Positions 43,226 to 61,109 of a stretch of DNA of 64,000 nucleotides are shown piece after piece. Numbering within the stretch: the stretch's first letter is position 1; each line of letters begins with the position of its first letter. Source of the stretch: Desulfomonile tiedjei DSM 6799 (lineage in GTDB: Bacteria > Desulfobacterota > Desulfomonilia > Desulfomonilales > Desulfomonilaceae); the NCBI RefSeq assembly GCF_000266945.1, contig NC_018025.1, forward strand, positions 1,116,001-1,180,000, given 5' to 3'. The notes below the pieces were generated by a model that ran no database searches, was not told the origin of the DNA, and was given only the letters and a program-made list of their open reading frames with translations. A program made the position numbers and the translations under genes.

Positions 43226-44446
43226 CTATGCAATCCTCATCGCTTCATCCTGTCGTACGGGCAGCATTAGCAGAATCCCCACAAGAGGACCGGCGGCCAT
43301 CATCCACCAAACGATCGAAAAACTCTGAGTAACGTCAATGGACCATCCCAAAATGAACGGCCCGATCATGGAGGCAAATTGGAACACAAAATTCGATGTT
43401 CCATTGGCAGTTGCAGCCCATTCTCTTCCCGCGAATTGGGAAATGAGAACTGTGAGCTGAGGGTTTGCAATATAGGATGTGAATCCCAGAATAAAGCCTG
43501 TCACGGATAAGAGACCAAGGGTGTCCTGATATCCGAAAACTACGCAGAGAGGTGCGGACACCAAGTACGCACCTACCACCAGCCACTTTCTCTGCCCCGT
43601 CCAGTCGGAAACAAACCCGGACAAAAGCGGAGCGATAATTCCACCCACTCCATACGACATCATCACGTAGCCTGCTTCAGCAACTGAAAAGCCCAGCTTC
43701 TTAATATGTGCATTGGCCCATGTTGCAGTCCCGAGTTCCAACCACATGAGACAGAAACCCGATAATGCAGTGAGAATGAGTCCTCTGCTCCTTGCTATGA
43801 CTTTGAACCCGCCCAGAAGAGTCTTTTCCTGGGATTTTATGAGACCGCTCGATCGCATAAGCAGCAGAACCAAGATGCCTGCGGTAAGTGTGAGAAATCC
43901 CACAGACTTGAAAGCACCTTGCCAACCCACGAGAGCATTCAATGAGGGAACGAACAGGTTTGTCATTAAGATGCCACCCGATGGAGCGGCCAGGAATACC
44001 CCGAAAGCTCTTCCTCGTTCATTGGGAGGGAACCATTCCATGAGCGCGAGTGAACAAGAGGCGTACACTGCACCAGCTCCGAGACCTGCAATCACCCTGA
44101 GAATGAAACCTGTTTCATACGAATTCATGAACCCCATCGAACTGGTGGAAATGCCTTCGAGGATAAGACTGACCCCCAGGATAACCCTTACTCCGAAGCG
44201 GTCAGAAAGCACTCCGGCAGGTATCTGGGTGACTATGTATCCCATGTAAAAAGCACTCATGTATGCACCGGCCTGACTCATGCTGATGCCCAGTACAGGA
44301 ACTACAACGGGAATGAGTGGAGGCCAGGTAAATCGCGTGATGAATGTGAAGAGAAAACAGCAAACGCACAATCCGAGAATTACCCACCTGTACGGCATTG
44401 CAGGTGAAAGCTCGGCACTATCAATATGTTGCACTACGTTTGTCAT
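43226..44446 (-). CDS. MFS transporter, second of a tandem pair
   Basis: 406 residues and 12 helices of the ACS (anion:cation symporter) type. TRFTWPPLIPVVVPVLG, QIPAGVLSDRFGVRVILG, GLGAGAVYASCSLALMEWFPPNERGRAFG and GWQGAFKSVG are nearly shared with the protein at 44453, its paralogue 6 bases upstream. It lies in the methyltransferase operon and probably imports the methylated substrate or exports the demethylated product. Confidence 0.88.
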   Translation of the reverse strand: MTNVVQHIDSAELSPAMPYRWVILGLCVCCFLFTFITRFTWPPLIPVVVPVLGISMSQAGAYMSAFYMGYIVTQIPAGVLSDRFGVRVILGVSLILEGISTSSMGFMNSYETGFILRVIAGLGAGAVYASCSLALMEWFPPNERGRAFGVFLAAPSGGILMTNLFVPSLNALVGWQGAFKSVGFLTLTAGILVLLLMRSSGLIKSQEKTLLGGFKVIARSRGLILTALSGFCLMWLELGTATWANAHIKKLGFSVAEAGYVMMSYGVGGIIAPLLSGFVSDWTGQRKWLVVGAYLVSAPLCVVFGYQDTLGLLSVTGFILGFTSYIANPQLTVLISQFAGREWAATANGTSNFVFQFASMIGPFILGWSIDVTQSFSIVWWMMAAGPLVGILLMLPVRQDEAMRIA

Positions 44447-44452
44447 GTGCTG

Positions 44453-45661
44453 CTAGTCTCTTCTGTTTTCGGGGTTTACGGGAAGCATGCAGAGTATACC
44501 TACCACCGGGCCTGCAGCCATGATCCACCACACGGTAGAGAAGACTCCAGTCACGTCGATAGCCCATCCCATAATGATAGGGCCGATTGTGGGAGCCAGT
44601 TGGAACAGGACGTTCGAGCTTCCATTGGCAAGCGCAGCAAATTGCTTACCCGCAAATTCCGAAACAAAAATAGTGAGATGGGGATTGGCGAAGTAGGAAC
44701 AGAATCCGAACAAAAATCCCGTAACGCACAGCATCGTCAGGTCGGTTTGATAGCCGAATATGACTGTCATCGGTGCAATCACGGCAAGAGAACCCAGGTA
44801 GATCCACTTCCTGTGGCCGATCTTATCCGAGAGCCAACCCGATATGGCTGGAGAAATCAAACCTCCTATACCGTAAAACATCATCACCGATCCTGATGCG
44901 GCAAGGGTGTGACCGAGTTTCTTGATGTGAGCAATGGCCCATGTAGCGGTGCCGAGTTCCACCCACATAAGGCAAAAGCCTGAGAGTGCCGTCAAGAGGA
45001 TGTCTCTGTTTCCGAAGACGACTTTAAAACCTGCAAACATGTTCGCTGAAGTCGTTGTGGTCTCGGAGGATCGAACGAGAAAGAAAATGACAACACCAAT
45101 GAGGATTGTGGCCACACCGACTGTTTGAAAAGCACCTTGCCAGCCAATCCAGGAGTTTAATGGAGGGACAATGACGCTTGATAGAAGAATCCCGCCGGAG
45201 GGGCCGGCTAACATGATCCCGAAAGCAATTCCTCTTTCCTTCGGCTGAAACCATTCCATCAACGAACGGGCGCATGCTCCATATACTGCTCCAGCTCCGA
45301 GGCCGGTGATGAAGCGGAGTGCGAAACCAGCATCATAGGTGGTGATGTAGCCCATCCCGAAAGTGGTAAGACCTTCGATGATGAGGCTGGCAGCGAGTAT
45401 GAAGCGGACTCCAAAACGGTCCGCCAGGAGTCCGGCAGGAATCTGGGTAATAATGTACCCGAAATAAAAGGCCCCCATGAAAGCTCCAGCCTGAGCCATT
45501 TTCATGTTCAGAACCGGAACGACTACAGGGATCAACGGAGGCCAGGTGAATCGCACGATAAACGTGAACAAGAAACATGCAAACATCATGGCGAGAATAA
45601 CCCACCGATAGGGAACCGACTCAACAGATTGTGTAGCTGAACTTTGCACGGCATCCTCCAT
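44453..45661 (-). CDS. MFS transporter, first of a tandem pair
   Basis: 402 residues, 12 helices, paralogous to the downstream protein over its whole length: VRFTWPPLIPVVVPVL, QIPAGLLADRFGVRFILA, GLGAGAVYGACARSLMEWFQPKERG. First gene after the sigma-54 promoter at 45865-45879, with a leader of about 190 bases. The two copies may have split roles such as import and export. Confidence 0.88.
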   Translation of the reverse strand: MEDAVQSSATQSVESVPYRWVILAMMFACFLFTFIVRFTWPPLIPVVVPVLNMKMAQAGAFMGAFYFGYIITQIPAGLLADRFGVRFILAASLIIEGLTTFGMGYITTYDAGFALRFITGLGAGAVYGACARSLMEWFQPKERGIAFGIMLAGPSGGILLSSVIVPPLNSWIGWQGAFQTVGVATILIGVVIFFLVRSSETTTTSANMFAGFKVVFGNRDILLTALSGFCLMWVELGTATWAIAHIKKLGHTLAASGSVMMFYGIGGLISPAISGWLSDKIGHRKWIYLGSLAVIAPMTVIFGYQTDLTMLCVTGFLFGFCSYFANPHLTIFVSEFAGKQFAALANGSSNVLFQLAPTIGPIIMGWAIDVTGVFSTVWWIMAAGPVVGILCMLPVNPENRRD

Positions 45662-46310: not shown

Positions 46311-48887
46311 TCAGAGCTGCAGAGTTTTCATCTGTCGTCGTAAGGTGTACCGCGATACTCCCAGCAAACGCGACGCTTCCTGCTTGTTCCCGCCGGATCT
46401 TGACAGGGCTTCCAGGACAAGGTTTCGGCGAATGTCGGTCACCACTTCTACAAGGGACGGCATCGGAGGAAAATGGATCGTCCAGGACCGCAGCGATTTT
46501 TCGGGAGCTTCGCAATTGAGGAAATCGAATTTCAGCTCTCGTCCCTCTGAGACTATGACAGCTCGCTCGAGAACATTTCGGAGTTCTCGAACATTCCCCG
46601 GCCACTTGTATGCACAAAGCTTGACCATATCGTCATGGGTAATTGCAGGCGTTCCCGGCAACTGAAGCTCCTGGGCCAAATGAGAGATGATGCGACTGAC
46701 CAGGTTGGGAATATCGTCTATACGTTCCTTCAGAGAAGGCACTCGTATGGAAAGCACATTGAGTCGATAATAGAGATCGTGGCGAAAGCGGCCCTTTGCC
46801 ACTTCTTCTTCCAGGTGGCGATTCGTGGCTGCAATGAGTCGCGCACTGACGATTACGGATTTTTCGCCGCCCACACGGGTGAATGAACGGGTGTCGAGAA
46901 ACGTGAGCAGTTTTGCCTGAAGATGCAGGGGCAGCTCTCCTATTTCATTCAAGAGCAGGGTTCCGCCTTCCGCAAGTTCAAGGAGACCTCGTTTTCTCCG
47001 TTTTGCTCCGGTGAATGCACCTGCCTCGTGACCGAAGAGTTCCGATTCAGCCAGTTCCGGCGGAATTGCAGCACAGTTTATGGCATAGAACGGGCCGCTT
47101 GCGCGGCGGGAATTATCGTGGATAAAGCGAGCCAGATGGTCTTTGCCTGCTCCACTTTCACCGGTAAGCAGGATGATGATGTCAGTTTTTGCAGCCATAC
47201 GAGCTTCGGCAAGAGTCCACCGCATAGCTGACGAAGGTCCTTCTTCCACGGTGACGGTTTTCACGGGACCCGTCTTCGTTCTCTCGGTAATATTTCGCGA
47301 AATGCCGCAAATTCCCACGATGCTGCCGTGCTCATTGCGCATGGGAGCCCTGATATCGAGGAATGTCATGGGGATTCCTCTGACAGGTCTGGTATGCTCC
47401 GCCTCGATTATCTCTCCCGCCAAGACACGGAGATCCAATTGGTTCAGATGATCCGCGGGTTCAGGGCCGAACAAGTTCTCGTCTGTACTCTTCATAATCA
47501 CGGAGGCCGGTAATTCCAGGAGGTTCTCCATGGATGGATTGACCAGAGTGTACCTGAGATTTCTATCTTTGATGAAGACACAGTCCTTGGCAGTCTCGAA
47601 AATGGCTCGGAAGCGCTCTTCACTTTCCTTCAGAGCTTCTTGCGTGCGTGCCCGTTCGGCAATTTCGCTTTTCAGCCTTTCATTGGCTTCGGCAAGTTCC
47701 GCTGTACGATCCAGAACCCGCTGCTCCAGCTCGTCGTTCGCCTTCTGCAATGCCTCCTCAGCTTTTTTCCGATCGGAAATGTCAACGATAATTGCTACCG
47801 ACTGCACTCGATTATCAGGGTGTGGGATGCCGGCAATGGAAACGTCTCCCCAGAACATGGAACCATCCTTACGGAAATAACGTTTCTCGAGTCGGTATGA
47901 GTCCAATTCCCTACGAAAAAGCGACGCTGCCTTATCTCTGGAAACGTCGAAAAATTCAGGGACCGTTATATCCAGATGGGTCAATTCCAGAGCTTCACTC
48001 CTGCTGTATCCGAACATCCGTTCGAATGCGGGATTGACTTCAACGAATTTTCCCTGGTGATCGGTGGATGCAATGGCTTGTGCTGCTTTGTTATACAAAG
48101 CGCTGATGAGTGCATCCCTCTCTTTGAGAGCTTCCTGGGCTTTCTTTGCTTCCGTTATATCCGATATGATGCCTACGGCGGCTCCAATCTGGCGATCCAG
48201 ACCTCGCACAGGGCTGACGCTCAGGTCGCCCCAGAAGGAAGTGCCGTCCTTGCGAACGTACAGTTTTTCCATGCGGTAAAAATCGAGATCTCCTCTGATC
48301 AGTGCAGTAAGTTTCTCTTCCGATATGGTGAGAAAATCGGGGTGAGTTACATCCAGGTGCGACATTCCAAGCGCTTCTTCGGCTGTGTACCCGAACATTC
48401 TCTCCCACGCCGGATTCACCTGGGCATAGTGACCCTTATCATCGGTAAGCACAATTGCCTGAGCAGCATTATCAAGAGTAGCTCGAAAGCGGGCTTCCAG
48501 CTCATGCAAAGCCTCTTCCAATCGGCTGGTGTGCGTGACATCCCGAGCAATGGTTACCTGAGCTTTTCTCCCATCCAGCCAATCTATATCAAGCTCTTGG
48601 ACTGCAAATTTCCGGCCGGCTTTCGTGATCCGATATTCGGAATCACCTTCCAATGGGGGAACAAGTGACTCAGGTTTCTTCCACAGACTACCCGGCGCAG
48701 AAGACGAGTATTCGTGTGCGATGCTTTCCGATTCTGCCAAAATCTTTTCTGCCCGAGAATTTGCGAACAGAAGCTGCTTGTTTTCCGCATCAACTACCCA
48801 CACGGCAGCGTCGAGATTTTCCAGGAGAAGTATGAAGGACGGGGAGACCGGATCGGAAAATTCTGATTTTGAGGCGAGTACTTTCAT
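46311..48887 (-). CDS. Sigma-54-dependent activator with four PAS domains
   Basis: About 858 residues. PAS units start near residues 15, 125, 250 and 430 (WVVDAENKQLLFANSRA; DDKGHYAQVNPAWERMFGY; DHQGKFVEVNPAFERMFGY; KDRNLRYTLVNPSMENLL); a coiled coil precedes the last. The AAA+ domain has Walker A GESGAGKD, GAFTGAKRR (sigma-54 contact), GGTLLLNEIGELP and the R-finger region FRHDLYYRLNVL. The C-terminal Fis helix-turn-helix is NKQEASRLLGVSRYTLRRQM. The second and third PAS are near duplicates with KDGTSFWGD-type PAC motifs. It probably switches on the operon behind the sigma-54 promoter at 45865. Start ATG 48887 has only a weak ribosome site. Confidence 0.92.
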   Translation of the reverse strand: MKVLASKSEFSDPVSPSFILLLENLDAAVWVVDAENKQLLFANSRAEKILAESESIAHEYSSSAPGSLWKKPESLVPPLEGDSEYRITKAGRKFAVQELDIDWLDGRKAQVTIARDVTHTSRLEEALHELEARFRATLDNAAQAIVLTDDKGHYAQVNPAWERMFGYTAEEALGMSHLDVTHPDFLTISEEKLTALIRGDLDFYRMEKLYVRKDGTSFWGDLSVSPVRGLDRQIGAAVGIISDITEAKKAQEALKERDALISALYNKAAQAIASTDHQGKFVEVNPAFERMFGYSRSEALELTHLDITVPEFFDVSRDKAASLFRRELDSYRLEKRYFRKDGSMFWGDVSIAGIPHPDNRVQSVAIIVDISDRKKAEEALQKANDELEQRVLDRTAELAEANERLKSEIAERARTQEALKESEERFRAIFETAKDCVFIKDRNLRYTLVNPSMENLLELPASVIMKSTDENLFGPEPADHLNQLDLRVLAGEIIEAEHTRPVRGIPMTFLDIRAPMRNEHGSIVGICGISRNITERTKTGPVKTVTVEEGPSSAMRWTLAEARMAAKTDIIILLTGESGAGKDHLARFIHDNSRRASGPFYAINCAAIPPELAESELFGHEAGAFTGAKRRKRGLLELAEGGTLLLNEIGELPLHLQAKLLTFLDTRSFTRVGGEKSVIVSARLIAATNRHLEEEVAKGRFRHDLYYRLNVLSIRVPSLKERIDDIPNLVSRIISHLAQELQLPGTPAITHDDMVKLCAYKWPGNVRELRNVLERAVIVSEGRELKFDFLNCEAPEKSLRSWTIHFPPMPSLVEVVTDIRRNLVLEALSRSGGNKQEASRLLGVSRYTLRRQMKTLQL

Positions 48888-49040
48888 TTTCTTTCTTTTC
48901 AGTTGCGACAACGTATTGCAAAAGGGTGCGACTTTCGGAACCAATCAGCCGCTTTTTCAGTATATCGAAAAGTGCTATGGCTTCAAAGTGTCCATGATTT
49001 CATTTGAGATGAAGTTGAAGTGAAGTATAAACGGGGGAGG

Positions 49041-49427: not shown

Positions 49428-49640
49428 ATACGGATTTGCTTTCAAAGCAGTAAAATCCGGGGACCTTTTTATAAGAAAGGTCTCCAAATCCTTCAAAAAA
49501 CTTTTAGCACTCACCCAATTCCGTAGTTTTTCTATGAAAAACCACGGAATTGGGTGAATATTAAAAGTTCTTGGGAAGGGACTGGGAAACACTTCTTACA
49601 AGAAGGGTTTCCCAGATCTTCTCTCTTTGAAAGCATATTG
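49428..49640. repeat. Dispersed repeat, family D copy 4
   Basis: The longest copy: TTGCTTTCAAAGCAGTAAAATCCGGGGACC, a long hairpin, AAAAGTTCTTGGGAAGGGACTGGG, then CTTCTTACAAGAAGGGTTTCCCAGATC and CTCTTTGAAAGCATATTGG. Confidence 0.65.
49511..49557. terminator. Long hairpin inside repeat D4
   Basis: TCACCCAATTCCGTAGTTTTT pairs with the complementary arm ending at 49557 with one mismatch. The stem is T/A-rich at the top. It lies beyond the end of the minus-strand TrpD-like gene. Confidence 0.5.
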
Positions 49641-49643
49641 GTC

Positions 49644-50711
49644 TCAGGCCGTTCCCTGGAATTCCCTGAGTTGCTGGAGTTTCTCAAGTGCCTTTCCCGA
49701 AGCCAGAGCTTGCCTCGCCATATCCGTGCCTTGCCGATAGCTTTCTGCGTAGCCTGAGATGTACAGGGCAGCTCCGGCATTCATGCAGAAGAACAGGGCT
49801 TCGGGTTCGTCGTACGCCTGAGACAGCACATGAAGAATGGCTTTTGCATTGGCCTCGGCGGTCTTGCGACTGGCAATCTTCTCAAAGGGAATTGTTTTGA
49901 TGCCGAAATCCTCAGGGGTGACTTCATAGGTCTCCACGCGACCGTCCTTCAGTTCGACCACCCTTGTGGGGCCACAGGGGGAGTATTCATCCATGCCGAG
50001 ACCGACGTCCATGCCTTCGGCAGTGCCGAAGGGCGATACCGCTGCGGGCATACCGATTTCCTTAAGTACCGCGATGAGCTGGTCGCAGACGTGGGGTGCA
50101 TACGCTCCGATGACTATGGCGTTGTTCTGCTCACACGGACGGGTGATCGGGCCGATAATGTTGAACGCGGACGTAAATCGCATGGACCTGATCAATCGTG
50201 CCCAACCTGACTTCAGAAATGCTTCTCCGGGCAGGTAGCAGATGCCGTACTTGTCGAGACAGTCCTGTGCCTGGGACAATGGAGCATTCAGATCGATGCC
50301 CAGGATTTCGAGAATGTCCGATGCTCCGGCAACTCCGGTGACCAGACGGGCTCCTTTCTTAGCTATGGGCAACCCGCAGGCTGAAGCAATGAAAGTGGCC
50401 GGAGTAGACCCGTTGACCGTCTTCAATGAATCAGAGCCGGTGCCCACGATATCGCAGATGACGCCGCTCCGGGTAGTGTAGACCTTGGCTGTGTCGTGGC
50501 GATCGAGCGCATCCCAGGCACCTCCCAGTTCCTCGATGGTGGGGCCGCGGGAAATGTGGGCCATGAGGAATGCCCCCTGTTGAAGTTCCGGTTGTTCATT
50601 AAGAATGATCTGTCGGTACGCTTCACGGGCTTCGTCTCGGCTGAGTGTACGTCCCAGAGCAACGGCCGACGTCAGCCGTCCGAATTCCCGCAATTGCAGT
50701 TCGGTCGCCAT
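49644..50711 (-). CDS. TrpD-like phosphoribosyltransferase under cobalamin control
   Basis: 355 residues from ATG 50711 (AAAGGAG 5 bases upstream). Glycosyltransferase family 3 plan: N-terminal helical domain (LSRDEAREAYRQI, QQGAFLMAHISRGPTIEEL), PRPP loop DIVGTGSDSLKTVNGST, then ASDILEILGIDL, SAFNIIGP and MDEYSPCGPTRVVEL. In true TrpD the acceptor loop reads KHGNR; here it is KKGAR, and HPA(L/M)K before the conserved Arg is changed to KSGWA. The acceptor is therefore probably not anthranilate. No trp genes are nearby. It lies behind a cobalamin riboswitch and a dehydrogenase gene, so a link with corrinoid metabolism is inferred. Confidence 0.75.
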   Translation of the reverse strand: MATELQLREFGRLTSAVALGRTLSRDEAREAYRQIILNEQPELQQGAFLMAHISRGPTIEELGGAWDALDRHDTAKVYTTRSGVICDIVGTGSDSLKTVNGSTPATFIASACGLPIAKKGARLVTGVAGASDILEILGIDLNAPLSQAQDCLDKYGICYLPGEAFLKSGWARLIRSMRFTSAFNIIGPITRPCEQNNAIVIGAYAPHVCDQLIAVLKEIGMPAAVSPFGTAEGMDVGLGMDEYSPCGPTRVVELKDGRVETYEVTPEDFGIKTIPFEKIASRKTAEANAKAILHVLSQAYDEPEALFFCMNAGAALYISGYAESYRQGTDMARQALASGKALEKLQQLREFQGTA

Positions 50712-50830
50712 GGTGTCTCCTTTCACAGTAGTAAAACCGGCATGACGGCAAGGAATGGCAGGACTCTCGAAAGCCCCCACATCCCAGGTCATACGGACTT
50801 TCAGTCCAGATAGTTCTCGTTAAAGCCGAA

Positions 50831-50858
50831 GCACTGACCTGCGGAGCCAGGTCAGTGC
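50831..50858 (-). terminator. Perfect 11-bp stem between the two genes of the operon
   Basis: GCACTGACCTG pairs exactly with CAGGTCAGTGC over 6 bases. On the minus strand it is followed by TTCGGCTTT. It may lower expression of the TrpD-like gene relative to the dehydrogenase. Confidence 0.5.
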
Positions 50859-50887
50859 AGTAAGCACATCTTGAATGCAAAATGGCA

Positions 50888-51856
50888 TCATTCGATTCGA
50901 ACCAAAATCTTGAGCGCCTGACCGTCAGCGATTCGAGGGAGATGGCCGGTCACTTCTTCAAGGGTGATCTCCCCTTCTACTAAAAGCTCGATGTCCCGAT
51001 CATGCTGCCTGATAATGTCGAGTGCTTCATGAAACTGTGCTCGCGTGCAACCGTACGCTCCAGTGACACGAAGTTGTCGATAGTGGATTTCGTTGACAAC
51101 GTCGGAAGTGATGGTGTCCTCATGAGGCAATCCGCTGAACAGGCAGAAGCTTCCTCCCGCGCGGGTCGAACGAAGTCCCGAGAAAAGGGTGTCCGTGGCA
51201 GCACAGACATTGATCGCAGCATCAAAACCCTTGGCGGAAGGTTGGGTGCCGGCTGGGATGCCGAGGCGATCCAAATAGACCTGGCTCTGTTCAAGCCTCG
51301 CCGGTTCTTTTTCCACGACGAAAGCCCGCGCGGAAAAAGACCGAGCTGCGAGTCCCATCAAAAGACCCACAGGCCCGGCCCCGAAGACCAGTATCCGATC
51401 ACCGGGCCGGGTCTGGATTTGATGCAGCGCATTGAGACAACACGCCAACGGTTCGGCCAAGCAGGCGAGCCGCAATGAGACGCCGGCAGGTACGGGAATC
51501 AGCGATTCCTTCGGCACAACCATGGCCTGCGCGAGTCCGCCGTCCCGGTTGAACCCCATAATGTGGATGTCGGGACAGAGGTTTTCCGATCCCTGGATGC
51601 AGAAACTGCAACTACCGCAGGTCGCACCGGGCCAGACGACCACTTCACGCCCGGAGGTCAGATCGATTCCAGAGACCTCATGACCCAACACCCGCGGCAA
51701 GACGAGGTCTCGTTGGCCCTTCTGCCACATCTTGGCGTCCGTGCGGCATAGTGCGCAGTAACGCACGCGGACCACGGTTTCTTCAGGAGAGGGCTCGGGC
51801 AGTGTCACCTCATCGAGCCTCAGTTCACCCACCTGGTGAAGTCGAAGTGCTTTCAC
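50888..51856 (-). CDS. Zinc-dependent medium-chain dehydrogenase under cobalamin control
   Basis: 322 residues, MDR/alcohol dehydrogenase family. Catalytic zinc residues in CALCRTDAKMW and GHEVSG; structural zinc cysteines in CGSCSFCIQGSENLC; nucleotide loop VFGAGPVGLLMG. Closest in style to threonine/sorbitol dehydrogenase-like members, somewhat shorter than usual. First gene after the riboswitch at 52085-52235, whose terminator lies at 52040-52065. Substrate unknown. Confidence 0.85.
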   Translation of the reverse strand: MKALRLHQVGELRLDEVTLPEPSPEETVVRVRYCALCRTDAKMWQKGQRDLVLPRVLGHEVSGIDLTSGREVVVWPGATCGSCSFCIQGSENLCPDIHIMGFNRDGGLAQAMVVPKESLIPVPAGVSLRLACLAEPLACCLNALHQIQTRPGDRILVFGAGPVGLLMGLAARSFSARAFVVEKEPARLEQSQVYLDRLGIPAGTQPSAKGFDAAINVCAATDTLFSGLRSTRAGGSFCLFSGLPHEDTITSDVVNEIHYRQLRVTGAYGCTRAQFHEALDIIRQHDRDIELLVEGEITLEEVTGHLPRIADGQALKILVRIE

Positions 51857-52039
51857 ATCAGAACCTTTCTAAGCAGGCGCTTTGGTCTGTAAGGCGATTC
51901 GAGACGATAGGTTTCTCCTATAGCAGATGTCAGAATTATTGCCGATTGCGAAAAGAGCTCGAAAATCGGTAGGTGCCGTGCCTCCGTGCCGGCACATATC
52001 TCTGCATTTGTCGCTGTGAACCATCACAGAAAATAAAAA

Positions 52040-52065
52040 GCCCTGCCGCGTTTCAGCAGCAGGGC
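52040..52065 (-). terminator. Intrinsic terminator of the riboswitch
   Basis: On the minus strand GCCCTGC...GCAGGGC stem followed by TTTTTATTTT. It lies about 20 bases after the riboswitch, the usual position for transcriptional control. Confidence 0.85.
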
Positions 52066-52084
52066 GTTCCTTTACCATCGGTTA

Positions 52085-52235
52085 CCCTCGTCGGAGCGCT
52101 CGTCTTCCGGCTTCCGGGTCTCTCTCCACGTGCCCTTCCCATTCGGCTGAAGCCGGACAGTGGTTTTGCACGTTTCGTCTCCGGTTACGGCGGCGGGACC
52201 GCCACGGTTTTTACCGTGTTCCGTTGGCGCCTCGA
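52085..52235 (-). ncRNA. Cobalamin riboswitch
   Basis: Read on the minus strand: P1 arm CGTCGAGGCGC closing with GCGCTCCGACG; CGGAACACGGT; the conserved GGTCCCGCCGCCGTAA; GGAGACGAAA; ACCACTG...ATGGGAAGG with flanking pairing CGTGC/GCACG; and the B12-box-like AAGCCGGAAGACGAGCGC. Order and spacing fit the class I cobalamin riboswitch. Binding of cobalamin should favour the terminator that follows, switching off the dehydrogenase/TrpD-like operon. Confidence 0.9.
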
Positions 52236-52430
52236 CGTATGTTCTTAAAGATTCTCAGAAGAAGGGTAAGGTGTCAAGAAAAAGGTGAGACCGGACTCGC
52301 GCTGACATCATTGATCAGCCATAAATAAGGCCTGTTCTCAGGACAAGTACATATAATGGGCACAGTAGTGATTCTGAGAAAGAAAAAGGATGTAGGACAA
52401 ACGGCCAATAGCTTGGTTACGATTCATCTG

Positions 52431-52488
52431 TGGTGCCCCCGGCAAGGATCGAACTTGCGACCTGCGGATTAGGAATCCCTTTTTACTT
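52431..52488 (-). other. 3' fragment of tRNA-Arg(CCT): attachment site of the integrative element
   Basis: On the minus strand the sequence reads as anticodon loop TTCCTAA with 3' stem TCCGC, variable loop, T arm GCAAG-TTCGATC-CTTGC, acceptor strand CGGGGGC and ACCA. The D arm and 5' acceptor are missing: to the right the sequence is AT-rich and unrelated. An integrase gene starts 157 bases away. This is the classic displaced tRNA 3' end left by integration. Confidence 0.8.
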
Positions 52489-52644
52489 ACCTAGACACGA
52501 AAAGACACCTATCGACTAAACATCACAATAATGGCTTGACAAGAGGACTTTAAGGGATTAGATATGTGTCCCACATAGACACAAATGCACCGCAGATTCC
52601 GCATTCATGTTGACTCTCAGTTGACTAAAATTTGAAACACGAGA

Positions 52645-53847
52645 ATGAGGACTGAAATATTGAAAACGACAAAAGACAATTCTCGGAGAAGAGCCGTGAA
52701 GAAATTCGCGGGAGTCTACGTTACTGAAAGCGCAATGCGTCAATGGCGGGAACGGCCGGATCGATGCTATTCCGTGATGTTTCGGGACTTGGAAACAGGA
52801 AAACTAAGATTCGAGCGCTGCGGATGGGCAAGTGAAGGATGGACGCCCGAGGCCGCTCAACGCCGTCGTACGGAATTACTAGAGCAAGACCGGGTAGGAG
52901 AATACAAGTCAAAGGCGCAACGAAAGCAGGACGAGCTAACCTTTGGGAGATTCATGGAAGATCGTTTCCTTCCGTGGTCAGACGACAATACCCGGCATCC
53001 CCGTGATTATCGCGGTCTGTATAAGAATTGGCTGAAGCCTGAATTTGAGACCAAAACGCTGGGCGGAATCGATCCTCTCTCCATCGAAAGATTGCGAAAG
53101 AAGATGCGTGATGCCGGCCGGTCTGATGCACGAATCATCCATGCTCTCGGACTCCTCCGGAATGCCCTCAACAAAGCAATACAATGGCGTTTGTGGTCCG
53201 GAGAAAATCCGATCAAAGCTGTGAGGCTCCCCAAGTTGAACAATGCCCGGCAACGATTTCTCAGCACAGACGAGGCTGAACGCTTATTGACGGCTTTACG
53301 AAAGAAGAGCAAGCAAATTGAACGCATGGCAAGAATGAGCTTATACGGTGGCTTCCGACTTGGAGAACTGTTCAAGCTGACATGGGGTAACGTGGATCTG
53401 AAAAACGGAATCATCATGATCCAGGATACTAAGAATTCCGAAAGCAGGCCGATTTTTACTACCTCCAAAATTCGGGCCGTCTTGGACGAACTCACACCGG
53501 GTGAACCTGATGAATTGGTGTTCACGACAAAGCAGGGGCGCTCGATTCAATGGCTCTCCAAAACCTTCGGCGTCGTTTTACAGGAGCTTGGATTAAACCG
53601 GAACGTGACTGATCGCAGAGAAAAAGTTTGCTTTCACACGCTTCGGCACACGTTCGCAAGTTGGGCAGTTATGGCCGGAATCCCTATTTACACTCTTGCA
53701 AAGACATTAGGGCATCGAACCACGACCATGACGGTCCGGTACAGCCACCTTTCCCCGGACAGTCAAAAAACGGCTTTCGAGGCTGTGAGTCGATTTGCTG
53801 AAGAATCAAAAGGCACGGAAGCGGAGGCAGCAAACAATGACGGATGA
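52645..53847 (+). CDS. Tyrosine recombinase / integrase
   Basis: 400 residues. An N-terminal arm-type and core-binding region is followed by the catalytic domain with the first Arg in SLYGGFRLGELFKLTW, HTLRHTFASWAVMAGI (H-x-x-R), LGHRTTTMTVRY with the last His and the nucleophile Tyr. All catalytic residues are present. It should recombine the tRNA-Arg site 157 bases upstream. The next gene starts inside its 3' end. Confidence 0.95.
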   Translation: MRTEILKTTKDNSRRRAVKKFAGVYVTESAMRQWRERPDRCYSVMFRDLETGKLRFERCGWASEGWTPEAAQRRRTELLEQDRVGEYKSKAQRKQDELTFGRFMEDRFLPWSDDNTRHPRDYRGLYKNWLKPEFETKTLGGIDPLSIERLRKKMRDAGRSDARIIHALGLLRNALNKAIQWRLWSGENPIKAVRLPKLNNARQRFLSTDEAERLLTALRKKSKQIERMARMSLYGGFRLGELFKLTWGNVDLKNGIIMIQDTKNSESRPIFTTSKIRAVLDELTPGEPDELVFTTKQGRSIQWLSKTFGVVLQELGLNRNVTDRREKVCFHTLRHTFASWAVMAGIPIYTLAKTLGHRTTTMTVRYSHLSPDSQKTAFEAVSRFAEESKGTEAEAANNDG

Positions 53848-54925
53848 TTCACTACCCCCCGAGTGGACAAGGATAATAGAAGAGGACAAAATCAAGACCG
53901 AAATGGATTTTCGTGAAGCGAGTAAACAATATCAGCTTGGCAAATGTCCAGGTAGTTCGCGCTATTGGATAAACGGCGAGACTCTGAGAGGGCACTTTCA
54001 AGAAAACTTTCCTGACTTCAAGAACTTGAACTCTGATTTTAAGTGCTGGATTCCGCTTCAATTACCGATCTTCATGGTTGCTAACGACGGGAGCGTAAGA
54101 CAGATCAATGACTATTTGAATAATGCGGCCAGCGATCATACTATTCCGAAAATGGGTAAAGCGAGCGATCCCACTCTTGACAGTGTTTTTGGTGCGGCGA
54201 ATCGTGCTCTCACATGGCCTAATTTCTGGTGGTTTAAGAAGCTCGACGTAATAATTTTTGAAAAGCTGCATAGTGTTCCGAAGCCTATGTTTCCCCTTCT
54301 TTCCTTACTCTGGCTCACTGAAGACGAATTGGAAGCGCGCTGGAAAAACAAGAAAATCTCCCAAATGGTCAAAGATGGTTTAACAGCGTATACACTTTCA
54401 CTAACCGGAGTTACATCCAGAAGCGAAACCACGGATGAAAACGATGAAAGAGACGAATCTCCGCTTGGGCCTAGATACAATATATGTCCTGAATTTGTTC
54501 CTCATGTCCGCAAGTATTCACCCTACATATTCAGATTGCGAGATGTGAGGAAATTCGAGCGAGAAAATTATGACCTCCTTGAGATGAAAACCAAGGACGT
54601 CTGGTCTCTGCGTGTTGCCGATTCTGTAAAATCTTGGATTCGTTTTCGACCGGATCTGCTGAACGATTGCCTAAAAGAACGACTTTACTCTCGTTGTTCA
54701 GCGCAAATCCGAGAGCCACTCTGGGGGTATTATAGCGGAGGCCCCAAGAGTAAATCGGCTAATCTTATGAAAGCACTTGCTGCAGCTGATGCATTAAGAG
54801 AACGGGACCGTCACTCCGGCGGAAGCCCAGGAAGCAAGTTCAGATGTCCATGGAGATCTTGTAAGAATATCAACTGTGCCCACATTGAAACCTCGCTGAA
54901 GCGATCATTGATGTCTCAGTCGTAA
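53837..54925 (+). CDS. Hypothetical protein overlapping the integrase gene
   Basis: 362 residues from ATG 53837 (GGAGG 9 bases upstream), overlapping the integrase stop by 11 bases, so expression is coupled. A charged N-terminus is followed by a W/F-rich middle (RALTWPNFWWFKKLDVIIFEKLH, FPLLSLLWLTEDELEARWK), an acidic stretch ETTDENDERDE, and a C-terminal CPWRSCKNINCAH cluster that could bind zinc. No family recognised. Position suggests a role in integration control or a cargo function. Confidence 0.55.
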   Translation: MTDDSLPPEWTRIIEEDKIKTEMDFREASKQYQLGKCPGSSRYWINGETLRGHFQENFPDFKNLNSDFKCWIPLQLPIFMVANDGSVRQINDYLNNAASDHTIPKMGKASDPTLDSVFGAANRALTWPNFWWFKKLDVIIFEKLHSVPKPMFPLLSLLWLTEDELEARWKNKKISQMVKDGLTAYTLSLTGVTSRSETTDENDERDESPLGPRYNICPEFVPHVRKYSPYIFRLRDVRKFERENYDLLEMKTKDVWSLRVADSVKSWIRFRPDLLNDCLKERLYSRCSAQIREPLWGYYSGGPKSKSANLMKALAAADALRERDRHSGGSPGSKFRCPWRSCKNINCAHIETSLKRSLMSQS

Positions 54926-55110
54926 CGTATCGATTTCACTATATCCATAATTTATTTTTTGATCTACTCAAAATATTTCCCCCATAATGCCAGTCCATTA
55001 AAAACCTCGCGCCTCAAAAGCGCTTGTTTTCGATCCTGCGGTGGATAGTTAACCAACTGTAATAATTGTAGATTGTCTCCAATGTCCATGAACGAAAAGG
55101 AGACAACGTG

Positions 55111-55335
55111 ATGGAACTTGAACGATATTCGAGAGTTAAACTGGCGGAACGGTGGGGGGTGTCCCCCCGAACTATCGACCGTATGCGCATAGATGGGCGC
55201 TTGCCTTGGCTCGATCTAAGCGGGGGGAAAGGGGCAAGGCCGATTGTGCGATTTAAGCTGAGTGACATTCTGGCCTATGAGGAAAAATTCCGTCAAGCCC
55301 CCTGTGATTTGACCCCTGATCGGGGGCCGAGATGA
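55111..55335 (+). CDS. Excisionase/AlpA-like helix-turn-helix protein
   Basis: 74 residues (GTG 55108 is an alternative; AAAAGGAG precedes). RYSRVKLAERWGVSPRTIDRMRIDGRLPWLDL is a MerR-type winged helix as in excisionases, with PIVRFKLSDILAYEEKF closing the wing. Probable recombination directionality factor or regulator. Overlaps the next gene by 4 bases. Confidence 0.75.
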   Translation: MELERYSRVKLAERWGVSPRTIDRMRIDGRLPWLDLSGGKGARPIVRFKLSDILAYEEKFRQAPCDLTPDRGPR

Positions 55336-55709
55336 AACTTGCCAGAAATGAAGAACCCGAGAAAGTTGGAGCTTGCCTCGGGTCCAAATCAAAACAAACA
55401 TCTGATCTAACTGAGATAATAGAGCCTTACGCTACTACAGTCAATTCATTTTCTGCTTCAGGAACCTGTAACGACTCAACAGGCTGTGACTTTGTTTGTA
55501 TCTGCGAAATCATCCAACAGCTTCATGTTCCTGCTAAAATTATGTGGGATACGGTCAGATACGATAAGTTTATTGCCTATTCCCTTCGCAAAACTCGCCC
55601 ATGCCCGGAACATATGCGCGATTGCCCCGATTACTGGAATTTATATGGTTGCCGATATTGGCGGTGGCCGGACGTGATTGAGTGGTGGGAGGGACAGCGG
55701 AATGCTTGA
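55332..55709 (+). CDS. Hypothetical cysteine- and tryptophan-rich protein
   Basis: 125 residues starting in the stop of the previous gene (ATGA). The second half has CDFVCICEIIQQL, RPCPEHMRDCPDYWNLYGCRYWRWPDVIEWWE: seven cysteines and many tryptophans, suggesting metal binding. It overlaps the primase start by 8 bases. No family recognised. Confidence 0.5.
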   Translation: MKLARNEEPEKVGACLGSKSKQTSDLTEIIEPYATTVNSFSASGTCNDSTGCDFVCICEIIQQLHVPAKIMWDTVRYDKFIAYSLRKTRPCPEHMRDCPDYWNLYGCRYWRWPDVIEWWEGQRNA

Positions 55710-58155
55710 TCTCGCACTATATAGGACCGCATTCGACATGCCGACGGTTTTAACTCGCTTCGGAATCTCTCTCAATGGATCAAGGCACACTCCTTGCTTT
55801 CTTCACGGAGACAGGAACCCAAGCCTTAAAGTCTATCCCGATCATGTCTTTTGTTACGGATGTGGAAAACACCTGGACGTTATTGGCGCTGTCCAATACT
55901 TTCAGAATTGCGACTTCTGGGGCGCTTTGGAATGGATTGCAGCCGAGACAGGCTTACCGCAACCCCGCCGAGATCCCGAGGCGCAGAAGCGGTATGAGAT
56001 CGCGAAAGGGATTTCTGATGCTTATGCGTGCGTCTTTGCGGATGCCTTGAAGAATCCGGAACGCGCCTTACTTTACCTGGAAGGCAGGGGAATCAACCGC
56101 AACATCATTGAAGGACTGGCGGGATATCTCCCGAACAATTACGAACCGCCCGACCGGGCCGCCGCGGAAAGAGCCGGGCTATACTCCCGAAACGGAAACT
56201 TCCTGTTTTCGGACCGAGTAGTCATACCGATCTATAGGCAAGGCCGCATCATAAATCTCTATGGCCGGGCCTTGGATCCGAAGCGAGAGCCAAGACACAT
56301 CTATTGCGCTTCGACCGATCCCCCTCAAGAGCAAACCTTGTTCGGTCTGGACCGCTACAGGAAAGAGCAAAGATTGTTCGTAACGGAAGCGATCATTGAT
56401 TGCCTCACGCTATGGACGAATGGCTATCCAGCGATATCGACTTACGGAACACAAGGGCTCACAGATCAAAGAATAGCGGCTCTCAAGAAAACCGACATAC
56501 AGAAAGTGGTTCTCGTTTTCGACTCTGACGAAAACGAGAGCGGACAGAAGGGCGCATTAAAAGCCGGTGAAAAGCTTTTCCGGGCCGGGATGGACGTGGA
56601 GATTATCCCTCTACCCATCGGGTCTGGTGAAGAGAAGGTGGACGTCAACAGCTATTTCCAAAACCATACACCTGAAGACTTCGACAGACTTCCGCGCCAA
56701 GAATTCTTTGATGTCTGCTTAGCCGGGATACCCGATCAGGGAACCCCGCGAGAGAAATACCGAGCCCTTGAACCTGTTATCAAGCTTGTTGCAGATCAAC
56801 CGGACTTGTTGTGGCGTGAATATGTTGACGAGATCAGCAAGCGCTTTCCAGGATACGATAAACGAAAGCTTGAGAAGGCTATCGCCGGTCTGGTCAAAGA
56901 CACCTCTCTCGGAGCTTCAAAAAGAGAGAAATTCCTGCCACTGGATTACGTGGAAAAGATCCGTTCAGAAGCCCCTGTGATCTTCTTTGATGGGAGATTC
57001 TATCGGTATGAGCATGGGGTATACCGGCCTTGGTTTGAGCAGGAAATCGATCAGCAGACTATTTCTCTGTTTGGGCCTGAAGTGGAGCCAAAGCACCTCA
57101 ACGCTGTCCGTGATGTCCTGGAAAGTGTTTGCTTTGTTCGGCCTGAGAAGGTCAATCCAAAAGGCTTCTTGAACCTGAAGAACGGTATCCTGAATCTCTC
57201 ATCCGGCGAGTTTATGGACCATTCGCCTAAGATAATAAGCACTGTTCAGTCGGAAGCTGCTTGCGATCCTAAAGCCGAATGTCCTTTATGGCTCGAGACT
57301 ATCGGGCAAATACACCCTGACCCTCAAATGCGGCATATTCACGCACAAATGTTCGGGTATTGTCTCACCCCTGACAATTCTCAGCAGAAAGGATTCATCC
57401 TCACCGGTGAAGGGGCAAACGGTAAGAGCGTTATCACGGATATTCTGGAAGCTCTCGCCGGCCGGGAAAATTGCAGCGCTCTTCACCTGTCCGACTTCAA
57501 AGAGCGGTTCCGGCTTGCTGAGCTGCAAAACAAATTGATCAACTTCACGACTGAAGTCGAAGCTAAGGGCCTTGTCAGTGATGCGCGGCTGAAGGGGGTT
57601 ATTACCGGCGATCCCATTACCGCTGAGAGAAAGCAGCAAGACCCCTTCGTTTTCAGGCCCTTTGTGAAATTGGTCATCTCGTGCAATTCCCTTCCGGTCA
57701 CAGCGGACAAGACGCATGGATACTTTCGCCGCTGGATCATTCTCCCTTTCAGGCAAACATTCAGTGAGAAGCTGGGGAATCTTGACCGTTCCAGAGCAAA
57801 AAGAATTATCGAGAAAGAGCTGCCGGGAGTGCTGAATTGGGCAATAGGTGGCTATAAGTCTCTTATGGACTCCGGGAATTTCAGCGAACCGACAATAAGC
57901 AAGGCAGCCCTGGAGCAATACAAGCGTGATACGGATTCGGCCATTATGTTTGTAGAGGAACGCATCCAAAAAATGTCCGGAGCGGCCACTCCGTACAAAG
58001 ACATCTATGCCGCATATACATCGTGGATTAAAGCTTGTGGGCTTGAGGCGATGGGAATCATTAACTTCCGAAAGTCTCTGGAGAGGGCAGTTGAGAAAGA
58101 GGCGAGGAAGACAGACAAAGGGCTCGTCTTTGACGACCTGACAATTCGACCATAA
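55702..58155 (+). CDS. Phage/plasmid primase-helicase (CHC2 zinc finger, Toprim, D5/SF3)
   Basis: 817 residues from ATG 55702. Zinc finger C-x2-H...C-x2-C at residues 31-54 (CFLHGD, VFCYGCGKHLDV), Toprim about 210-300 with LFVTEAIIDCLTLW and VVLVFDSDENESG, then a D5-N-like region and SF3 helicase with Walker A TGEGANGKSV near 567, Walker B-like KLINFTTEVEA and sensor region VKLVISCNSLPV. It synthesises primers and unwinds the element's own origin, as in P4-type satellites. A candidate origin lies right after it. Confidence 0.92.
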   Translation: MLDLALYRTAFDMPTVLTRFGISLNGSRHTPCFLHGDRNPSLKVYPDHVFCYGCGKHLDVIGAVQYFQNCDFWGALEWIAAETGLPQPRRDPEAQKRYEIAKGISDAYACVFADALKNPERALLYLEGRGINRNIIEGLAGYLPNNYEPPDRAAAERAGLYSRNGNFLFSDRVVIPIYRQGRIINLYGRALDPKREPRHIYCASTDPPQEQTLFGLDRYRKEQRLFVTEAIIDCLTLWTNGYPAISTYGTQGLTDQRIAALKKTDIQKVVLVFDSDENESGQKGALKAGEKLFRAGMDVEIIPLPIGSGEEKVDVNSYFQNHTPEDFDRLPRQEFFDVCLAGIPDQGTPREKYRALEPVIKLVADQPDLLWREYVDEISKRFPGYDKRKLEKAIAGLVKDTSLGASKREKFLPLDYVEKIRSEAPVIFFDGRFYRYEHGVYRPWFEQEIDQQTISLFGPEVEPKHLNAVRDVLESVCFVRPEKVNPKGFLNLKNGILNLSSGEFMDHSPKIISTVQSEAACDPKAECPLWLETIGQIHPDPQMRHIHAQMFGYCLTPDNSQQKGFILTGEGANGKSVITDILEALAGRENCSALHLSDFKERFRLAELQNKLINFTTEVEAKGLVSDARLKGVITGDPITAERKQQDPFVFRPFVKLVISCNSLPVTADKTHGYFRRWIILPFRQTFSEKLGNLDRSRAKRIIEKELPGVLNWAIGGYKSLMDSGNFSEPTISKAALEQYKRDTDSAIMFVEERIQKMSGAATPYKDIYAAYTSWIKACGLEAMGIINFRKSLERAVEKEARKTDKGLVFDDLTIRP

Positions 58156-58419
58156 TTCCTGACGACTTGGCTGACGACTTTTAAGAGGCATGTTCCGAAT
58201 ATCACAAGGAAACTGATGAGATGATGACTTTGAGAGCAGCATACTCTTATCCGTTTTTATATCTCTCTTCTCTTTATTATTTCTTTTTATTTTTCTTCTT
58301 CATAAAAAAGTAAAAAAGAAAGAAAGTCATCAGTTATTTAATGATAACAGCGAAGTAGCTTTACGAACTCGTCAGAAAGTCGTCAGAAACTCAGCAGAAC
58401 TCGTCAGGATGGAGCGACC
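58156..58419. other. Candidate replication origin: iterons and AT-rich tract
   Basis: CTGACGAC occurs at 58159-58166 and 58171-58178; its complement type GTCATCAG at 58326-58333; and four tandem 10-11-bp units (consensus AACTCGTCAGA) at 58366-58408. Between them is an A/T-only-like stretch (about 58245-58325). Iterons flanking an AT-rich tract beside a primase-helicase gene are the plan of P4-like and plasmid origins. Confidence 0.6.
58366..58408 (+). repeat. Four tandem iterons of about 11 bp
   Basis: AACTCGTCAGA, AAGTCGTCAGA, AACTCAGCAG and AACTCGTCAGG in immediate succession, i.e. one per helical turn. Confidence 0.7.
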
Positions 58420-58677
58420 ATGAACCTTTATGAAGTCCTAGCCGATAATTCATCTTTCGTCCAGGCAGCAACAGCGGAATCTGCTAAGTATGAAGACTCA
58501 TTCGATACAGACTCTTCACCGGATTCCGAACCCGCCTGGATACCGCCCTCATTCGAGGAAGTCGCCGCCGACCTGGGGTGTCATGACTGTGAAGCTTGCT
58601 ATCGAGGATGGTGTCGGGCTGTTTCGTCCAGGGGCTTTTACAACATCAGGCTATTACGAGATTGCCCGAAATCTTAG
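58420..58677 (+). CDS. Hypothetical small protein after the iterons
   Basis: 85 residues, GGAG 8 bases before ATG. An acidic first half (EDSFDTDSSPDSEPAW) is followed by a C-terminal GCHDCEACYRGWC cluster with four cysteines. No family recognised. Confidence 0.5.
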   Translation: MNLYEVLADNSSFVQAATAESAKYEDSFDTDSSPDSEPAWIPPSFEEVAADLGCHDCEACYRGWCRAVSSRGFYNIRLLRDCPKS

Positions 58678-58752
58678 TGTTCGAGAAAGACTTTTCCGAG
58701 ACAATCGTTTTTTTGTTTTACAGGACTGCAATGAACCGGGTAATTTCCCTCT

Positions 58753-59142
58753 ATGTATCAGTGCAAGAGCCAACCTATAACGGCGAGAAAAAACAAGCGC
58801 GTCATCGAAGAGGCAAGACGATTCATCGCGGAATGGCGAGCCGAATCGAGAGCATCAAGACCATGCGTTCGGGTAAGATTATTTGGCAGGAAGGAACGAG
58901 TTTTCATAGACGATTTTCATTATCACATCGAAAAGAAATCTCCGGCCGACATGATTGGTCGATATCGTCTCGTCCCCTGTGTGAAAGAACTTCTGAAACA
59001 TTCTGAAGAAAAGCCCGTCATAAACGAGAAAGGCAATTGGGAACTCGAAGGAGTCACGCCGGACGGAAAGGTTTTTCGGGTTATAATCCGGCCGGAAAAA
59101 CGGGGAGGATGTTTGCAGAGCTTTTATCCAGTTCGAAAATAA
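58753..59142 (+). CDS. Hypothetical protein, possibly nuclease-like
   Basis: 129 residues. RVIEEARRFIAEWRAESRA, FHYHIEKKSPADMIGRYRLVP, KELLKHSEEKPVI and GKVFRVIIRPEKRGGCLQSFYPV. The order I-x-K...helix...F-R-V-I-I-R...L-Q-S-F-Y-P resembles small BECR/RelE-like nuclease domains of phages, but this is a pattern impression only. Start uncertain, no strong ribosome site. Confidence 0.45.
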   Translation: MYQCKSQPITARKNKRVIEEARRFIAEWRAESRASRPCVRVRLFGRKERVFIDDFHYHIEKKSPADMIGRYRLVPCVKELLKHSEEKPVINEKGNWELEGVTPDGKVFRVIIRPEKRGGCLQSFYPVRK

Positions 59143-59980
59143 GAAAAGCCCATGTGCCCTTATGCCGTGGCTTTTGGCTCTTGGGTTGGCCGCGTCAGGC
59201 TTTTGCCCTTCGACTTACGTTACCCCTATGACGGCAAATTGTGAGGCTCGAGACCTCTACACACGGACCCTTCCCGAACAGTCGACACCCGCTGTCACTT
59301 TCAAGAAGTTGAGGGGTTCGCTGCTCACGATCTATTTTAATGAGACAACAATGCCTGTGTCAAGTTCATTCTCTTCACACCTGCCCACCCCCAGCCCTCC
59401 GGTGGCTTATGGATAAGTTGTCAAAATTATAACTACCCGCAAACGAGATACATCAGCAAAGTGGCTGCAATAGATACTTTTCGCAACATTGCCACTTTTA
59501 AAGAAAAACCCCAAAAGTGAGCAACACTTACCTAATTGAGAGAAAAGACCGGCTATTCCACCATAATGACTTATGTGATCTTTGAAGAATTGGCATGTTA
59601 TCCACATAGGTTAGTTTCATTCGAGGTAAGTGGCGCTTTGCAAGATTACACGGATCTTTCCTGATGTCCTGAATAAAAAGTGGCAATGTGATTCATATGG
59701 CATGATTTTGTATTCTGATACAGTGGCAAAAATCGACCTATGAACGACATCCAAACTTAATCTTAGAAGTTCCATCTAATCGCGCGATATCTCTCCATCA
59801 TCTGAAAATGATTATTATTTTCTTGACAACGATGTACCTGTAACTTTACCCTTGGGGGAATCCAGGCAAAATCTCCTTGCATCAGCCCTTCTTTCTCAGG
59901 TTAGAAAATGGATAACCCTGCCCGAGTTTCCACGCCCAGAGCAGGGTTACGCCACAAAACCAGAAATGGAGGTCTGTGAC
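59143..59980. other. Long region without a confident gene
   Basis: An 84-codon frame at 59162-59416 begins with a signal-like MPWLLALGLAASGFC but has no ribosome site. 59486-59499 and 59676-59689 are perfect inverted copies of ACATTGCCACTTTT, with a third partial AGTGGCAA at about 59720. A reading frame open from 59852 leads into the gene at 59981. Confidence 0.45.
59486..59689. promoter_or_regulatory. Pair of distant 14-bp inverted sites
   Basis: ACATTGCCACTTTT at 59486-59499 and AAAAGTGGCAATGT at 59676-59689, 176 bases apart. They could be operators of the repressor encoded at 60451. Confidence 0.4.
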
Positions 59981-60454
59981 ATGAGCAAAGTCTATCCGTT
60001 GGAAAAATCAGAGTCAATCGTGCTGACGGTTTGTGAGGGGAGAGTCCCCAAGCCTGCCGCCCCTTTCGGAATCCCCGCTGATATCCATGATCATTTGATG
60101 AAGATCAGCAGTCAAAACAATGCCCCCGCATGGGAGCGCTACGCGAATCCTGAAAAATACGGCGATTGGCCGGATACTGTCGAAGTGTTCAATCAGTGGT
60201 GTAAACGGCATTCAGGAATCTTTAAACTGATCGAGGCTGCGGGCCCGAGGCTGCGCTTCGCAGAATGCGATTACAGCGAAGAAAGCATGGAACTACTGGT
60301 CGGAACCCTCAACGCCATTGTCAATCAGCTCGGGCCTGCCTTTGATGATCTGAAGGATTTGATTCAATGGGCAACGGTCGCGTGGGAGCATGACCCAGCG
60401 ATAACTGATTCAGTAGATCACGAGAACAACGAGAATCCAGGGGGTGAGTCATGA
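59981..60454 (+). CDS. Hypothetical protein upstream of the repressor-like gene
   Basis: 157 residues from ATG 59981 with GGAGG 7 bases upstream. The frame is open to 59852, but that part lacks a ribosome site. KPAAPFGIPADIHDHLMKISSQ, RYANPEKYGDWPDTVEVFNQW and an acidic C-terminal half. No family recognised. The stop overlaps the next start by 4 bases. Confidence 0.55.
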   Translation: MSKVYPLEKSESIVLTVCEGRVPKPAAPFGIPADIHDHLMKISSQNNAPAWERYANPEKYGDWPDTVEVFNQWCKRHSGIFKLIEAAGPRLRFAECDYSEESMELLVGTLNAIVNQLGPAFDDLKDLIQWATVAWEHDPAITDSVDHENNENPGGES

Positions 60455-60705
60455 AGAATTCAACGGCAGATTACGATAATACTCACAAAAAATTCGCAGG
60501 GCGGCTGTTGTTGCTCCAGAGACCGGGGGAAACTCGCTCAGCTTTTTGCACACGGGCCGGAATCAAACCCGCGAGACTTCGGACATGGTTAAAGGGCGAA
60601 GGAGTTCTTTACATCCACGAAGGTGCAGAGATCGCAATGCGCCTGAATGTCTCTCCTGGTTGGCTGGTGTGCGGTGAAGGTACGGGAGGCGCATATCAGA
60701 ATTGA
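60451..60705 (+). CDS. Phage repressor-like helix-turn-helix protein
   Basis: 84 residues. ETRSAFCTRAGIKPARLRTWLKGE is a Cro/CI-type helix-turn-helix, followed by AEIAMRLNVSPGWLVCGEG, the typical end of short XRE-type proteins. Coupled to the previous gene (ATGA). Likely controls the element. Confidence 0.7.
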   Translation: MKNSTADYDNTHKKFAGRLLLLQRPGETRSAFCTRAGIKPARLRTWLKGEGVLYIHEGAEIAMRLNVSPGWLVCGEGTGGAYQN

Positions 60706-60860
60706 TGTGCTTCCCTCTGAAATCGGAGCGCCCGGGGTTTATCGCAGATTCCGGGTGCTCCTAAGGGGTGTAAAGAAAGTTGACACACTGTACAATATCC
60801 GACATATCGAACTGGCGGACAACAGATCACAATAACAAGCGAAAACTACGAGAGAATGCA

Positions 60861-61109
60861 ATGCGTAATCATGTCTTCTGTTGGCTTGCCGCAATTCTCG
60901 CCGCAATGACCCTGATGAATGGATGCAGTGAAGGGGAACAATCCCCGGCCACCATTCATGAGCGACCAGTGGAACGATACAAAAGCCTGATGGAAGAATG
61001 GGACACGAAAAAGGAAAGATGGGGCGGATACCGCCTATTAGAAGAAGAGGCTGAAATGTATGAAGGGGAAGGACAGGATCTACAAGAATACGAGCCATGG
61101 CCAAAGTAA
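60861..61109 (+). CDS. Small putative lipoprotein
   Basis: 82 residues from ATG 60861. Signal peptide with lipobox LMNGC (cleavage before Cys 22 or so), then a short, highly charged mature chain (ERYKSLMEEWDTKKERWGGYRLLEEEAEMYEGEG). Entry-exclusion or surface-exclusion lipoproteins of mobile elements look like this, but no family is recognised. Confidence 0.55.
   Translation: MRNHVFCWLAAILAAMTLMNGCSEGEQSPATIHERPVERYKSLMEEWDTKKERWGGYRLLEEEAEMYEGEGQDLQEYEPWPK

Follow-up and report, generated by a model that had tools for sequence, protein, structure and literature searches.

The window (the whole 64,000-nucleotide stretch of the Desulfomonile tiedjei DSM 6799 chromosome that was analysed) contains a cobalamin riboswitch on its minus strand. 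Only two genes lie behind it, the first encoding a zinc MDR dehydrogenase and the second a TrpD homologue, henceforth TrpDL (Table 1). A first-pass annotation made from the sequence alone had described a class I cobalamin riboswitch at 52085-52235, an intrinsic terminator and these two ORFs, and the three elements were found as described. The match to the Rfam Cobalamin model extends over its full length (1-189) and scores 62.8 bits, with E 3.7e-13 over the whole window (gathering score, 31.5 bits). The host genome contains eight cobalamin riboswitches; the best reaches 117 bits, and the one under study scores lowest.

Table 1. Features of the MDR-TrpDL operon, in window coordinates and in order of transcription.
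Feature	Position	Strand	Basis
Cobalamin riboswitch aptamer (RF00174)	52080..52271	(-)	Rfam Cobalamin covariance-model match
Intrinsic terminator, presumed OFF expression platform	52040..52065	(-)	Stem and T-rich tail; folding
Zinc-dependent MDR dehydrogenase, 322 aa	50888..51856	(-)	Domains ADH_N and ADH_zinc_N
TrpD-like phosphoribosyltransferase (TrpDL), 355 aa	49644..50711	(-)	NCBIfam match; own clade; TrpD fold
Long hairpin 3' of TrpDL	about 49507..49560	(-)	-37.6 kcal/mol, z -10.8

The terminator precedes the regulated genes, as an expression platform of RF00174 should. Its stem has 10 bp, eight of them G-C pairs, and ends in the tail TTTTTATTTT; folding gives -22.9 kcal/mol (z -4.3), and none of 200 shuffled sequences was as good. 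Aptamer and terminator together have the anatomy of a transcription-terminating OFF switch, from which cobamide-dependent switching is inferred. The dehydrogenase gene starts at a GTG codon with AGAAAGG upstream. The start listed for the TrpDL ORF (50792) is probably too far upstream, and it was corrected to the ATG at 50711 because relatives and an AAAGGAG motif point there. The hairpin found beyond TrpDL, a probable transcript end as judged by its predicted folding, separates the operon from the next gene on the same strand, a sigma-54 regulator (46311-48944).

A scan of genome contigs, in which loci were fetched through TrpDL, yielded 57 loci from Desulfobacterota, Chlorobi, Bathycorpusculum archaea, Acidobacteriota, Lentisphaeria, Verrucomicrobiota, Dehalococcoidia and Peptococcaceae. 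The MDR family was present in 46 of the 57, and several of the remainder are cut by contig ends. For one order sample, 40 TrpDL loci were compared with 20 TrpD control loci drawn from the same sample: the MDR gene lay within 3 kb of TrpDL in 38/40 and CobT in 19/40, while neither was found within that distance of TrpD at any control locus (Fisher p 6e-14 and 8e-5, respectively). The trp genes flank TrpDL in 1/53 loci and lie beside TrpD in nearly all controls.

Gene orders that include the pair are MDR-TrpDL-cobT (L139), MDR-TrpDL-cobT-cobS (L143, L144 and L145), cobQ-cobU-MDR-TrpDL-cobT-cobS-cobD-cbiB (L015, where an apparent frameshift splits cobS, and cobD falls just under the cut-off) and cbiJ-cbiE-MDR-TrpDL, followed by genes for a CbiZ/CbiS-like amidohydrolase and a BtuF-like protein (L140). 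The pair adjoins cobO in L013, and in L061 hemA, hemC, cobA-hemD, hemB and hemL are found directly upstream (hemC and hemB were recognized by eye, the others by NCBIfam). Ten MDR-CobT fusions were detected in all, eight of them among the 40 order-sample loci; the fusions in L141 and L142 were detected with Pfam, and eight further ones by BLAST. The fused CobTs keep the RLGEGTGA motif and therefore look active, although activity is only inferred. Because CobT attaches the lower-ligand base, its fusion to MDR suggests that both enzymes catalyse adjacent reactions. A module for lower-ligand synthesis is expected to be genetically coupled to CobT, and the pair meets this expectation. We conclude with high confidence that the pair is part of a CobT-coupled module for cobamide synthesis.

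None of the additional genes that recur near the pair has an informative role, and no obvious precursor gene recurs. An ORF of ~90 aa recurs beside TrpDL (L141:9086-9376 and L142:8131-8400, as well as in L235, L246 and L253), and in L141 and L142 it sits between TrpDL and the MDR-CobT fusion. Its search against Pfam gave no match, and it might possibly be a small partner protein.

The first-pass annotation had named, as one outcome that would refute its reading, that conserved homologues of the pair never occur in the neighbourhood of cobalamin genes or riboswitches. In fact, such homologues are found there repeatedly, unlike the TrpD controls (0/14 for riboswitches, besides the 0/20 given above for CobT). 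A cobalamin riboswitch on the same strand stands directly upstream in 22 of the 26 order-sample operons scanned, and further pairs preceded by one were found in two Desulfomonile relatives and in a Peptococcaceae contig. In the 22 operons, the riboswitch ends anywhere from 64 nt inside the called first ORF to 330 nt before it; the overlaps are most likely due to start codons placed too far upstream. Of the four operons that lack a riboswitch, one is truncated 188 nt upstream. Within one subclade, control by the riboswitch is general. At the scanned loci of the window's own subclade, no riboswitch was found outside Desulfomonile, and the link to cobamides therefore rests there on gene neighbourhood. 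A SAM riboswitch on the opposite strand was observed just upstream of the pair in L228, L234 and L237.

Residues C37, E60 and E135, the four structural-zinc cysteines and the GxGxxG motif are present in all 58 aligned MDR sequences, and H59 is aligned in 52 of them. A structure search retrieved threonine/polyol dehydrogenase folds only and gave no clue to the acceptor. The fold and the zinc sites are thus common to the pair's MDR and the threonine 3-dehydrogenase/polyol MDR family; however, the former scores far under every curated cut-off (105 vs 380 for Tdh) and, unlike that family, is always accompanied by TrpDL.

The curated NCBIfam cut-off for TrpD (TIGR01245) fails to separate TrpDL from TrpD: TrpDL passes it with 247.7 vs 199.05 bits. 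A true TrpD is encoded elsewhere in the host genome (4785469, 416.6 bits). When 51 proteins were analysed with IQ-TREE, 34 pair-type proteins and 17 TrpDs formed two clades with support 100/99 and a long stem between them. Length, fold and PRPP/Mg residues are common to both. The AlphaFold2 model of TrpDL is a confident TrpD fold (pLDDT 93.6, TM 0.84 to 4hkm), and a comparison of 72 TrpDL with 36 TrpD sequences indicated that, of the PRPP/Mg motifs GTGxD, NxS and DE, the N and DE residues are present in 72/72 TrpDLs and the Asp of the GTG motif in 71/72, with the GTGGD of TrpD changed to GTG(S/M)D. What distinguishes TrpDL, besides its own clade and its linkage to cob rather than trp genes, is the acceptor site. 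In 72/72 TrpDLs, Ala or Ser takes the place of the Asn of KHGN, and Leu, Ile or Val that of the first Arg of PRR; the Asn and the Arg are kept in 36/36 TrpDs. The reserve of the first-pass annotation, which had written ‘TrpD-like’, was therefore well founded. On the basis of the motifs and of general knowledge (the Mtb sequence is not in the alignment), we take these residues to be the equivalents of Mtb N138 and R193, which are varied in structures 4x58 and 4x5b, and to have a role in anthranilate binding. Because the PRPP/Mg residues and the TrpD fold are kept while two acceptor-site residues are replaced, TrpDL very probably uses PRPP with an acceptor other than anthranilate, an activity inferred from alignment and model. 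A structure search with TrpDL retrieved TrpD folds only, without any hint of the acceptor, and a plasmid search for its relatives detected distant TrpDs only.

Replacement of CobT by the pair can be ruled out because CobT is present in 43/48 genomes that carry the pair, including all 12 of high quality, even if the Bathycorpusculum matches are weak. In the host, cobU and cobT lie behind another cobalamin riboswitch. The best host match to BluB (TIGR02476) reached 47 bits vs a cut-off of 150, and two ThiC homologues scored 515 and 495 vs a BzaB cut-off of 700. They fall into a different clade from the BzaF-like genes found beside CobT; the name BzaF-like was given to that clade because of its gene neighbourhood. 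Since BluB is under the cut-off and the ThiC homologues fall outside the BzaF-like clade, the host is without detectable BluB or BzaF, and none of the known lower-ligand routes was identified there. A segment of several kb that contains a ThiC homologue is present twice in the host, in inverted orientation and with the same ORFs (~5108500-5116500 and 6415500-6423500; L147 and L148), and adjoins a transposase-like gene. The host also has a third ThiC-like match (863998), which contains an in-frame TAG.

BzaF and TrpDL occur together in 11 of the 53 TrpDL genomes of the order sample, with 9.2 expected. A simple replacement of BzaF by the pair is unsupported, as no anti-correlation is seen. BzaF is enriched in the window's subclade (6/14 genomes, p 0.02). 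The comparison is not a clean one, since this sample includes genomes without cobamide synthesis; its genomes are also related to each other. BluB was detected in the four Chlorobi genomes tested (G329-G332; 265-269 bits), 8-15 kb from CobT. These green sulfur bacteria are anaerobes; known BluB needs oxygen. A Chlorobium study found cobT and cobS, and did not find bzaABCDE; its list of genes in low-coverage regions includes trpD and an unnamed dehydrogenase, and some of those regions hold cobalamin genes (PMC8620254).

Our preferred interpretation, which we hold with modest confidence, is that the two genes form a module of cobamide nucleotide-loop assembly, repressed by B12, which provides CobT with a substrate, most likely the lower-ligand base. 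Supply of the base is favoured because of the MDR-CobT fusion, the absence of a known route among the genes found in the host, and the report that, in 42% of predicted cobamide producers, none of the known genes for making or attaching a lower ligand is present (Shelton et al., PMC6461909). The observed riboswitch and terminator would act as follows, the OFF logic being inferred: at low cobamide levels, the riboswitch would keep the terminator from forming and both enzymes would be made; with cobamide bound, transcription would stop at the terminator. The observed change of acceptor site leads us to propose that TrpDL would phosphoribosylate, with PRPP, an aromatic or heteroaromatic acceptor other than anthranilate, or would catalyse the reverse reaction, releasing a base. 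MDR would oxidise or reduce the TrpDL product with NAD(P). Given the conserved pairing and the linkage and fusion to CobT, both of them observed, the two enzymes would thus furnish the substrate that CobT converts to the alpha-ribotide. Direction, chemistry and identity of the base are inferred, and neither acceptor nor product is readable from sequence. The first-pass suggestion of a missing step in cobamide biosynthesis or remodelling is therefore supported, though not for any one step in particular, and generalises through riboswitches and through adjacency and fusion to cobT; in the window's own subclade, riboswitch control was seen only in Desulfomonile.

If base supply is correct, the pair would fill the same slot as BluB, the aerobic 5,6-dimethylbenzimidazole synthase, a flavin-cannibalising enzyme unrelated to it. 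The Bza pathway (BzaA/B/F and BzaC-E, from AIR) provides anaerobic base supply, and BzaF-like genes likewise lie beside cobT; however, it relies on ThiC-like radical SAM chemistry and has no homology to the pair. ArsAB, which activates phenolic lower ligands, resembles TrpDL in being an extra phosphoribosyltransferase activity in nucleotide-loop assembly, but ArsAB are CobT homologues and TrpDL is not. A more specific hypothesis, which we consider slightly more likely to fail than to hold, is a further lower-ligand route unrelated to BluB, Bza and ArsAB: TrpDL would phosphoribosylate or release an aromatic base, and MDR would oxidise it and pass it on to CobT, which in some species is part of the same polypeptide (MDR-CobT). 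Such a route would serve many anaerobes without known lower-ligand genes and may make an undescribed cobamide. The lower ligand reported for the corrinoids of certain sulfate reducers is 5-methylbenzimidazole, as far as the title of the report indicates (Kraeutler 1988, via PMC4303638). No published description of the pair was found in the literature searched, which left out most subscription journals.

Whether an organism can use a given cobamide depends on the lower ligand. A widespread, riboswitch-controlled and CobT-coupled pair hidden as ‘TrpD’ makes part of the 42% gap directly testable. If the interpretation is true, prediction of cobamide type would improve in sulfate reducers, organohalide respirers and Chlorobi, and a systematic misannotation would be exposed, as the curated TrpD model accepts the TrpDL family.

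Several observations stand against base supply: coexistence with BzaF, BluB in Chlorobi, a riboswitch only in Desulfomonile within the window's subclade, and the lack of a recurrent precursor gene. Because the pair coexists with BzaF and BluB, its role may be to make a second base, to provide the ribosyl donor or to process the nucleotide. The donor would be NaMN or another beta-ribotide made or recycled from PRPP for CobT, and usable with any base. Although we regard this as unlikely, it accounts for the coexistence and for the MDR-CobT fusion, and the PRPP site is kept in TrpDL; however, MDR is left with no obvious role, the module's CobT keeps the usual motifs, and other enzymes already produce NaMN for NAD synthesis.

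Action on the nucleotide or on the finished cobamide (remodelling, alpha-ribazole salvage or loop modification) seems to us more doubtful still. The amidohydrolase and the BtuF-like protein that adjoin the pair in a single cluster in L140 would fit, as would the TonB-receptor-like genes that recur near the pair, but the linked genes are mostly for synthesis (cobT, cobS, cobU, cobD and cbiB), and the fusion partner of MDR, CobT, handles the free base.

The first-pass annotation had also considered an enzyme made only when corrinoid is short. Cobalamin riboswitches do control isozymes of this kind, such as metE or nrd (named in PMC8620254), and no cob gene is adjacent at the window locus. The repeated operons and fusions with cobT, cobS and cobU fit poorly with ordinary metabolic enzymes that have no role in cobamide synthesis, so this already disfavoured explanation is improbable. 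Finally, a second TrpD for tryptophan synthesis is hardly tenable and can be ruled out by tree, residues and gene context, in spite of the score above the TrpD cut-off and of a complete trp operon adjoining the pair in L143, which, like the host, has a true TrpD.

Other features were observed around the operon. Two tandem MFS transporter genes (43226-45661, minus strand) lie downstream of the PAS/sigma-54 regulator, near the pair and outside its operon. An Acido-Lenti-1 RNA, of a family of unknown function, was detected at 2445-2490 (minus strand, 56.5 bits). On the other side, a ~12-kb stretch (window 52420-64000) lies between two identical copies of a 48-bp repeat that resembles the 3' end of a tRNA; the second copy is at 1180485-1180532 of the host chromosome, equivalent to window 64485-64532. 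The stretch carries a tyrosine integrase (52645-53847) and a primase/D5-type helicase (55678-58155), and an integrative element is thus located immediately upstream of the riboswitch.
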